Below are positions 10,664 to 44,510 of a stretch of 64,000 bases of DNA, one piece after another. How positions within the stretch are numbered: position 1 is the first letter of the stretch; every line of letters begins with the position of its first letter. A model generated the notes under the pieces. That model was given only the letters and a program-made list of their open reading frames with translations. It did no database searches and was not told the origin of the DNA. The position numbers and the translations under genes are program-made. The DNA comes from an uncultured Clostridia bacterium (GTDB taxonomy: Bacteria; Bacillota; Clostridia; Oscillospirales; Ruminococcaceae): contig CAMVNQ010000007.1 in assembly GCA_947168885.1 (NCBI GenBank), forward strand, positions 62,001 to 126,000, written 5' to 3'.

Positions 10664-12001
10664 ATGAGCGGTATAATGGATAACGAAAATCTTACCTTCG
10701 CAAGACTCGCACTTGCGCTCGCAAATGACTATGAGTGTGTGTATTACCTGAATTCGGAGACTGATCATTATGTCGAATACGGCGCTTCCGGCGATGAAAA
10801 GGAACTTAAAGTTCTGTCAGAAGGCGATGACTTTTTCGCTGATACCGAAAAGAACTGCAGAAGGCTTGTCTGCGCCGAGGACCAGGAAATGTTCCTCAGA
10901 ACTTTCAAGAAAGATGCCGTGCTTGATGCCATAAAGAACGGAAGCTCGTTCACGCTCAACTATCGCCTGATGATAAACGGAGTACCGTGCCATTATCACC
11001 TCAAGACCATAAAGGGTACAGGCAAGGATGATAAATATATCATAATCGGTGTGCGTAATGTCGATGCGCAGGTCAGACGTGAGCTTGAAGCAGAAAATGA
11101 GAAAGAGCTTTATTCCCATATCGCGCACGCCCTCGCAAGCCGTTATGAAGTAATATACTACATAGATATACGCGACAACAGCTTCATAGAGTACAGTTCG
11201 AGCGAGCAGTTCGCAAAGCTCGGTGTCCGTAAACAGGGCGACGATTTCTTTGAGTCGGCAAAGACCGATATACGGAGCTTTATTTTCGATGCTGACCGCG
11301 ACAGAGTGCTTGATGAGATGTCACGCGACAAGTTTGTAAAGAATATCAGAGTCAACGGTTCGCTCACACTCACATACCGACAGCTCCTCGGCGGCCGTAC
11401 GCAGTATGTTTCGCTGATGGCAGTCGAACCCAAGAATGACCCCGACCATGTCGTTATCGGTGTTGTGAACATAGACGCTGACAAGCGCCGTGAGACCGCA
11501 TACCGCGAGGCTCTCGGAAATGCTATCGAGGTCGCGAACCACGACTCGCTCACTTCGGTAAGGAACAAACACGCTTACGCCGCTCTTGAGGACGAGATAA
11601 ACCAGCAGATAGCCTCCGGTGAGAACCGCGATTTCGCTATTGCAGTGTTCGATGTCAACAACCTTAAAGAAACCAATGACCAGCTCGGTCATGTCGCCGG
11701 CGATCAGTTCATAAAGAGCGCCTGCGAGCTTATATGCACAACATTCAAGCACAGCCCCGTATTCCGCATAGGCGGTGACGAGTTCGCTGTGGTGCTTATG
11801 GGAAAAGATTACAGAGACCGCGGTATCCTTATGGGAAAGATAGACAGCGTGGTAAAGGATAACCGCAATGCCCGCCTTGTGACTATCGCGGGCGGCATAT
11901 CAGCATTCGATTTCAAGACGGACAAGTTCGTAAGAGATGTTTTTGAGCGGGCGGACGCTGCTATGTATGAGAACAAGAAGATGTTCAAAAAGATGTTATG
12001 A
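10664..12001 (+). CDS. Diguanylate cyclase (GGDEF) with two tandem N-terminal PAS-like repeats
   Basis: FRIGGDEFAVVL; internally duplicated ~130-aa N-terminal unit ending VIIGVRNVDAQVRRE / HVVIGVVNIDADKRRE. Confidence 0.9.
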   Translation: MSGIMDNENLTFARLALALANDYECVYYLNSETDHYVEYGASGDEKELKVLSEGDDFFADTEKNCRRLVCAEDQEMFLRTFKKDAVLDAIKNGSSFTLNYRLMINGVPCHYHLKTIKGTGKDDKYIIIGVRNVDAQVRRELEAENEKELYSHIAHALASRYEVIYYIDIRDNSFIEYSSSEQFAKLGVRKQGDDFFESAKTDIRSFIFDADRDRVLDEMSRDKFVKNIRVNGSLTLTYRQLLGGRTQYVSLMAVEPKNDPDHVVIGVVNIDADKRRETAYREALGNAIEVANHDSLTSVRNKHAYAALEDEINQQIASGENRDFAIAVFDVNNLKETNDQLGHVAGDQFIKSACELICTTFKHSPVFRIGGDEFAVVLMGKDYRDRGILMGKIDSVVKDNRNARLVTIAGGISAFDFKTDKFVRDVFERADAAMYENKKMFKKML

Positions 12002-41872: not shown

Positions 41873-41994
41873 ATTTGGAACACTATTTTTAGTAATGTAA
41901 CCGTTTGGAACAAGATATTTTACTCTTTCGTCAGTATCTAACAACCCAAAAGAGATTTATTTGTTATTATTACACAGAAGATTTTTAAATTATC

Positions 41995-42023
41995 TTGACA
42001 TTTCGGTAGTTTTGCGATATAAT
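41995..42023 (+). promoter_or_regulatory. Consensus promoter of the EAL gene
   Basis: TTGACA-N17-TATAAT. Confidence 0.8.
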
Positions 42024-42146: not shown

Positions 42147-44462
42147 GTGCCGGCGATGAAAAAAAGTAACAGTTCGCAGATATTATTCGGTGTAAGGTGT
42201 GTTCTTATTGCGCTCGTTCTTCTTTCTATCTCCGGCTCATTCATATACAATTATATTACCCAGGGAAGCATATCTCTGATAGACCTCGCAATACGCGCAG
42301 TCGGTCTTGCCTGTGGAATTGCTGTCCTGTTCTTTGAGATCAAGACGTATATGAAGCTCTATAACGAGGGTGTCCGCGAAATATACAGAGAACAGAATGT
42401 TGAGCTCGACAAGCTCGATAAGTTCAAGCAGCTCGTCAACAAGAATGAGTTCGTTTATAACTTTCAGCCTATCGTAAACGCCCGGAACGGTGAGATATTC
42501 GCTTATGAAGTGCTTATGCGCACCGCCGATGAGATAGGTTTGAAGCCGCTTGAGGTGCTGAAGTACGCAGAGATCAGCAATATGCTGTATAACGTCGAAA
42601 GAAGCACATTCTTCAACGTTCTCAAATACTATAAAGACCACCTTTCCGATTTCGGAGACAAGAAGATTTTTATCAACAGCATACCGAGCGTTATACTGCC
42701 GGATTCCGAGCTTTCAAAGCTCCAGAGCCTGTACGCCGACATCTCGGAAAATGTCGTTGTAGAAATACTCGAAAACGACGATGATGATGACAACACGATC
42801 GCAGCGTTCGATAACCTCCGTAACATACTCAACTGCAATATAGCGGTCGATGACTACGGAAGCGGCTACTCGAACGATATGAAGGTGCTCAACAACAACC
42901 CGAACTTCATAAAGATCGATATGTCGCTTATAACTTCGATAGATACCGACTCGAAGAAGCAGCTCCTCGTATCCAACCTGATAAAGTTCGGTAAGAAGTA
43001 CAACATCAAGATACTTGCCGAAGGTGTTGAAACGAAGGAAGAACTCGCGAAGGTGATCGAGCTCGGAGTTGATCTGATACAGGGCTTCTATACGGCGAAA
43101 CCGTCCAAGGATGTTGTGAGCGGCATCGACGAAAATATCAGGGAATTCATTTCCGAGGAGAATATACGCCTTTCAAAGCTCAATAAAGAGAACCGCTTCT
43201 ATGAGGCTTATGAGGGCGAGATCATCAACCTGTTCAATCTTTCCCTTGAAAAGTTCGCGGGAGTTTATGTCCCGAGCGGAACTGTTCGTTTCCTCGGTAC
43301 CAAGACCAATATCGTCGATATGGTCATAAGGACTGCCGACGGCTCCGACACCATGCTCATTTTTGAGAACGTAAACATAAAGGGTGCTACCGAGACTACG
43401 GTTCAGGTCGGCAACAACGCTAAAGCCACAGTAGTACTTGAAGGCGATAATACATTCAACAAAGAGGGTATTTACGTTCCGCCGACATCGGTACTTACGA
43501 TTACAGGCGACGGTAACCTTAACATCAAGAATAACCGCAACGGCGGCGTAGGCATAGGCTCTAACTTCGAGAAGCCTTACGGTACTATCATCATTGATAC
43601 GCAGGGCTCAGTTACCGTCGATTCTTCCGGCGACAAGATAGTCTGCATAGGCGGCGGAGAAAACGGTTCCGGCTCACAGATCAGGATTCTGAACGGAAAT
43701 ATCCACGTTACTGCACGCGGCATTTACGCGGTTGGTGTGGGAAGCGCGACCGGAGATACGGATATATGCATTGAGCGTGGAGAGCTCCATTCTCAGTGTA
43801 TCGCGAACGAAGCCGTATCTGTCGGTTCAATGTTCGGAACGATCAATATCCGTATAAGCGGCTACCTTGATCTTGTAACTGACGGTGAGCGTGCAACGGG
43901 TATCGGCGTTCTCAACGGCGGAAGCGGTGCTGTCGAAATATCCGGCGGCGAGACCAATTCCGTTATCCACGGTGACATCGGAACGGCGGTCGGCTCTCTT
44001 GGCGGAAGGGTAGATGTCAACCTTATCGGCGGAAGAGTTCACGCTCATTCCGAGGGTACAAGAGTATGCGGCATAGGCGCGCTCGATGCGGGCGGTACCG
44101 TTCATATTTCCGGCGGCGTAGTAATTACCGGTGTCAAGTCCGCTGAACCTATATGGATAGGAAGCGCGGAGAAGAAGCCGATAATTACCGGCGGAAATGT
44201 AATTCTCGATAACAACGGCTCGATAACCGCGGTAAATTCTGCGGGCGAGGAACTTGTTCTCTATCGTATGAAGGGTGCTCCGTCATACAACGAGAATATC
44301 ACTACCATAGAAGGAAGCTACACTTACCGCGCACAGCGCGACGAACGCTCCGGCGAACTGTGTGTGTACGTCCCGGAACGCGTGCGTGAGCGCATAGCCC
44401 GTAATATGGCAATGAATACAGAGGCTCAGAATAATAACAGTTTTCAGATGATGAGCGGCTGA
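42147..44462 (+). CDS. Membrane EAL-domain (c-di-GMP phosphodiesterase) protein with C-terminal beta-helix-like repeat domain
   Basis: Two N-terminal TMs; FAYEVLMR, VDDYGSGYSN, KIDMSLI, AEGVETKEEL, QGFYTAKP; Gly-rich repeats from ~residue 380. Confidence 0.88.
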   Translation: MPAMKKSNSSQILFGVRCVLIALVLLSISGSFIYNYITQGSISLIDLAIRAVGLACGIAVLFFEIKTYMKLYNEGVREIYREQNVELDKLDKFKQLVNKNEFVYNFQPIVNARNGEIFAYEVLMRTADEIGLKPLEVLKYAEISNMLYNVERSTFFNVLKYYKDHLSDFGDKKIFINSIPSVILPDSELSKLQSLYADISENVVVEILENDDDDDNTIAAFDNLRNILNCNIAVDDYGSGYSNDMKVLNNNPNFIKIDMSLITSIDTDSKKQLLVSNLIKFGKKYNIKILAEGVETKEELAKVIELGVDLIQGFYTAKPSKDVVSGIDENIREFISEENIRLSKLNKENRFYEAYEGEIINLFNLSLEKFAGVYVPSGTVRFLGTKTNIVDMVIRTADGSDTMLIFENVNIKGATETTVQVGNNAKATVVLEGDNTFNKEGIYVPPTSVLTITGDGNLNIKNNRNGGVGIGSNFEKPYGTIIIDTQGSVTVDSSGDKIVCIGGGENGSGSQIRILNGNIHVTARGIYAVGVGSATGDTDICIERGELHSQCIANEAVSVGSMFGTINIRISGYLDLVTDGERATGIGVLNGGSGAVEISGGETNSVIHGDIGTAVGSLGGRVDVNLIGGRVHAHSEGTRVCGIGALDAGGTVHISGGVVITGVKSAEPIWIGSAEKKPIITGGNVILDNNGSITAVNSAGEELVLYRMKGAPSYNENITTIEGSYTYRAQRDERSGELCVYVPERVRERIARNMAMNTEAQNNNSFQMMSG

Positions 44463-44474
44463 TGACAAAAAATA

Positions 44475-44510
44475 ACCGCCTTCGGGAAGTGTGAACCGAA
44501 GGCGGTTTTA
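44475..44510. terminator. Terminator after the EAL gene
   Basis: AACCGCCTTCGG...CCGAAGGCGGTTTT. Confidence 0.88.

Follow-up and report, generated by a model that had tools for sequence, protein, structure and literature searches.

The gene and its product

The window, a 64,000-nt stretch of DNA from an uncultured Clostridia bacterium, contains an open reading frame at 42147–44462 on the forward strand, open throughout and encoding a 771-aa protein with two N-terminal transmembrane (TM) helices, an EAL domain and a C-terminal beta-helix. The frame is a real gene: an assembly or frame artefact was rejected, as the whole architecture is common to full-length orthologues in ten further genomes of the genus (68–83% identity), identified in a search of 99 relatives that also returned many remoter ones at 31–44% identity. 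Based on the start position common to the orthologues, the ATG at 42156 (768 aa) may be the true start.

Upstream lies a sigma-70-type promoter (TTGACA-N17-TATAAT; 41995–42023, forward strand) with a 12/12 match to the consensus and hexamers almost invariant across 13 orthologous upstream regions, followed by a leader of ~117–126 nt that exceeds the leader length of relatives. Both features, the leader at ~120 nt, had been called in an earlier, sequence-only reading of this DNA and were borne out. The leader had no match in Rfam, and a c-di-GMP riboswitch at this position was accordingly rejected. Just 3' of the stop codon, an intrinsic terminator, CCGCCTTCGG...CCGAAGGCGG-TTTT (44476–44509, forward strand), was read by eye; its loop of 10 is beyond the limit of the terminator scan. 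Together, promoter and terminator suggest a single-gene transcript. Loci of the same type (type A, see below) look monocistronic and are conserved, with a nucleoside phosphorylase gene upstream and, in part of the cases, a PFL-family gene downstream; a constant neighbouring partner gene was rejected, none being found among the gene neighborhoods compared. Upstream of the -35 hexamer (window 41950–42000), most orthologues also share a conserved TATACAGAAG-like box, a possible regulator site, and TTTTTGTAACC lies farther upstream than this box in most of the orthologous upstream regions.

The two N-terminal TM segments proposed from the sequence correspond to hydrophobic helices at residues ~12–30 (42180–42236; mean Kyte–Doolittle score of 2.38; AlphaFold helix 3–38) and ~44–62 (42276–42332; 2.15; AlphaFold helix 44–82). 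By eye, positive residues flank this hairpin on both outer sides and the short loop has none, so an N-in/C-in orientation is expected. The EAL domain (residues 93–319, 42423–43103; PF00563, E=2.3e-45) was the only Pfam match in the protein, and the last ~390 residues matched nothing in Pfam or NCBIfam. In the AlphaFold model, a connecting helix (residues 329–345, 43131–43181) joins the EAL domain to the beta-helix (residues 350–743, 43194–44375), which is also identified by its homology to exported beta-helices and has GIG or GVG turns about every 28–30 residues; based on its relatives, we take it to be right-handed. Extra strands and a helix (residues 744–770, 44376–44456, found in close orthologues only) cap its C-terminal end in the model. 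All of these features are on the forward strand. In two orthologues (L010 and L011), the beta-helix is followed by a Pro-rich C-terminal extension of about 50–110 aa.

Modeled alone, the beta-helix reached a mean pLDDT of 93.0 and a pTM of 0.89, which upholds the initial description of the repeats as beta-helix-like. The full-length model, built like the other in an AlphaFold run with 29–30 relatives, had a pLDDT of 86.6 (about 81–98 for beta-helix residues) and a pTM of 0.64, at which the predicted placement of the EAL domain relative to the beta-helix is uncertain and should not be trusted.

Family members and catalytic residues

We collected 84 non-identical proteins combining an EAL domain with this beta-helix, mostly from one family of gut and rumen Clostridia; the named records are rumen or gut metagenome assemblies of Ruminiclostridium, Ruminococcaceae or Clostridia. 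The fusion itself, the central claim of the sequence-only reading, is real, but it is not a one-off: the protein is one member of a family whose input domains are interchangeable. The window protein represents architecture A (2TM-EAL-beta-helix). Architecture B has a PAS-like/GGDEF input (about 900–950 aa, no TM) and architecture C a LacI-type sugar-binding domain (Peripla_BP) followed by GGDEF (about 1290–1320 aa, no TM); the genome of the window protein also encodes a type C paralogue (C7:155657). The remaining forms are D (Peripla_BP-EAL-beta-helix, about 1120 aa), E (soluble and short, about 700 aa) and F (TM-GGDEF-EAL-beta-helix, from sister genera). Comparison of these forms shows that the EAL–beta-helix pair is an old, fixed module that has exchanged one input for another. 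At one locus (L090 348–4424, reverse strand), a short EAL–beta-helix gene lies downstream of a LacI-type PBP-GGDEF gene on the same strand with a gap of 93 nt, as if a type C protein had been split in two.

To describe the distribution, we used a profile built from the beta-helix alone of EAL-fused members, which favors such members; it matched 35 of 60 genomes from the genus, 28 of 149 from the family and 12 of 292 from the class, compared to 3 of 399 in an even sample of the phylum. In every complete frame read, strong, near full-length matches directly followed an EAL domain, and families that supplied no sequence to the profile were likewise EAL-fused. Weak, partial matches lacked an EAL domain and nearly all began with a signal-like segment (the frame of one, L143, is open at its start); in three genomes of the genus and three of the family, they were the only kind. 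One weak match (L150 1136–4753, reverse strand) has a flagellin-like N terminus before GIG-type beta-helix repeats and may be a flagellin whose variable region is a beta-helix.

The EAL domain has the full fold, with a Foldseek TM-score of 0.83 to the MucR EAL domain (5m1t) and 0.79–0.84 across several solved EAL domains. Residues E121, N177, E206, D235, D236, K256, D258, E292 and Q312 are invariant in all 84 relatives, and E209 is kept in 83 of them. We take the equivalent catalytic positions of RocR to be E175, N233, E265, E268, D295, D296, K316, D318, E352 and Q372, all of which are present in the window protein; whereas the EAL signature had been read as mostly present, it is complete at these positions, as in EAL phosphodiesterases such as MucR and the stand-alone EAL protein of V. 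cholerae (6ifq). The companion GGDEF domains of the family look degenerate, no intact GG(D/E)EF having been found in them by motif search. With EAL catalytic residues kept and GGDEF parts apparently degenerate, the simplest reading is that the EAL–beta-helix proteins should be c-di-GMP phosphodiesterases.

Origin and location of the beta-helix

The beta-helix of the window protein is homologous to the repeats in a 2474-aa exported protein recognized by Pfam as Beta_helix_3 (hhalign probability of 99.8, E=2.8e-28, 31% identity over 159 columns). Profile hits had E values down to 3e-58, with no match in 260 shuffled or 13 reversed sequences, and the non-EAL proteins that the beta-helix profile matched all appear, where examined, to be exported surface proteins. 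The exported Beta_helix_3 proteins of Clostridia (PF18889) share the segment order of the window protein's beta-helix as far as the GIG turns but, unlike the window protein, have signal peptides, low Cys content, simpler Gly/Thr-rich turns and no EAL domain. The PF18889 profile did not match the window protein above its cutoff, the homology being detected only profile to profile. A second comparison is with Cthe_2159 (PF14262), a polysaccharide-binding protein (PMC8746771): the own-genome paralogue matched PF14262 weakly (E=5.6e-5, 23.0 bits versus a cutoff of 25.8) and the window protein not at all. The same genome also encodes a true member of the Cthe_2159 type (L055 1105–2517, forward strand), which bears a lipoprotein-like signal and looks like an exported lipoprotein.

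In a tree of EAL domains, all those linked to the beta-helix fell into one clade (support of 100/100) apart from eight controls, although the tree carried long-branch warnings and had few controls, five control EAL domains having been dropped by a strict motif filter. Several members without the beta-helix nest inside this clade and are best read as losses; one of them (L137) is only cut off by the end of its contig. An extracellular-type beta-helix has thus been captured by a cytoplasmic phosphodiesterase; that this happened in a single event is likely, though not proven. Between orthologues, dN/dS was 0–0.07 for the EAL domain, 0.035–0.13 for the beta-helix and 0.08–0.24 for the TM part, with dS near saturation in several pairs. 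By this measure the beta-helix is under purifying selection and less constrained than the catalytic domain; together with the orthologues in ten genomes, its dN/dS shows that the repeats form a genuine protein domain maintained by selection.

Several observations support a predicted cytoplasmic location for the beta-helix across the family. No TM segment was found anywhere in 56 of the 84 members, and the other 28 have N-terminal TM segments only. None of the 84 has an LPXTG (sortase) signal, and four marginal TM-like segments after the EAL domain look like strand sequence. Cysteine makes up 2.7% of EAL-linked beta-helices versus 0.7% of exported homologues, and occupies position -2 of the GIG turn in 17% versus 0%, the exported sample being small (11 proteins). 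For the window protein, we found no export signal, and its beta-helix model contains no TM helix. The initial proposal that the repeats lie inside the cell, with no hidden TM segment or export signal, therefore stands.

A proposed cytoplasmic binding platform

Known EAL phosphodiesterases carry sensory or GGDEF domains, mostly at the N terminus, whereas the window protein has its beta-helix at the C terminus; our literature search found no known EAL phosphodiesterase with a C-terminal beta-helix. By EAL domain, its closest relatives include LacI-type PBP-GGDEF-EAL proteins, in which LacI and GGDEF parts stand in place of the membrane hairpin. In the part of a review of c-di-GMP sensory domains used here (PMC8846402), PBP clan (Peripla_BP) and LacI-type domains are given as known inputs of c-di-GMP enzymes and no beta-helix is mentioned. 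Within one gut Clostridia family the architecture is common, but we found no paper on it in open-licence sources, although an earlier report is possible, and the protein family is apparently undescribed.

We propose, with a probability of roughly 0.6, that the protein is a membrane-tethered c-di-GMP phosphodiesterase, anchored by a TM hairpin whose two ends face the cytoplasm, in which the cytoplasmic beta-helix serves as a binding platform. The beta-helix would recognize a ligand or protein partner, and binding would place the enzyme or tune its activity, so that an intracellular cue would trigger local removal of c-di-GMP. A regulatory or docking role is favored. The EAL–beta-helix pairing is fixed while the N-terminal inputs change, which argues that the beta-helix acts on or with the EAL domain. 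Counting against it, the few close relatives that lack the beta-helix indicate that it is not indispensable.

The strongest competitor, which we consider possible but tentative, is that the beta-helix is a self-assembling scaffold that brings the phosphodiesterase together in clusters or filaments at the membrane and binds no small ligand. Bactofilins are cytoplasmic beta-helices with a scaffold role, and both the long, rigid fold and the membrane hairpin would suit such a cluster; however, the window beta-helix has no Pfam similarity to bactofilin, its C-terminal end is closed in the model, and soluble LacI-type forms bear the same domain. Somewhat less probable is an intracellular sensor of glycans or glycan intermediates: a carbohydrate-binding fold of the surface type would have been relocated to the cytoplasm, where bound polysaccharide or its precursors would directly switch c-di-GMP hydrolysis. 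The ligand cannot be guessed from the fold, since Foldseek returned no close solved structure for the beta-helix, only generic beta-helices (best E>0.01); naming the fold from solved structures was rejected on these poor scores.

We regard a passive role as unlikely, in which the appended beta-helix would fold and stabilize the enzyme but take no part in signaling: loss of the beta-helix from some close LacI-GGDEF-EAL relatives and a dN/dS several-fold above that of the EAL domain would fit, but about 390 residues are under purifying selection and are kept in several families whose input domains differ widely. Finally, a beta-helix outside the cell that binds plant or host glycans, with the EAL domain inactive or mis-topologized, is highly improbable and was rejected by the topology survey of 84 members: all non-EAL homologues examined appear exported, but here the EAL domain lies directly before the beta-helix with no TM segment between them, its catalytic residues are invariant, its substrate, c-di-GMP, is cytoplasmic, and both the TM- and signal-free relatives and the Cys content of the beta-helix point inward.

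In the Clostridia of gut and rumen, c-di-GMP signaling has been little studied. Here a fold otherwise found in exported surface proteins adjoins a cytoplasmic catalytic domain, in a module that stays constant while its inputs vary. If the beta-helix binds a ligand or partner, it would represent a new class of domain controlling c-di-GMP and would illustrate how a surface domain can become part of intracellular signaling. The genome encodes about 19 full EAL and 45 GGDEF domains, making the window enzyme one member of a rich network. Another c-di-GMP gene lies in the window itself, a 445-aa open reading frame at 10664–12001 (forward strand) with a GGDEF domain (C7:73534–73980, window 11534–11980).
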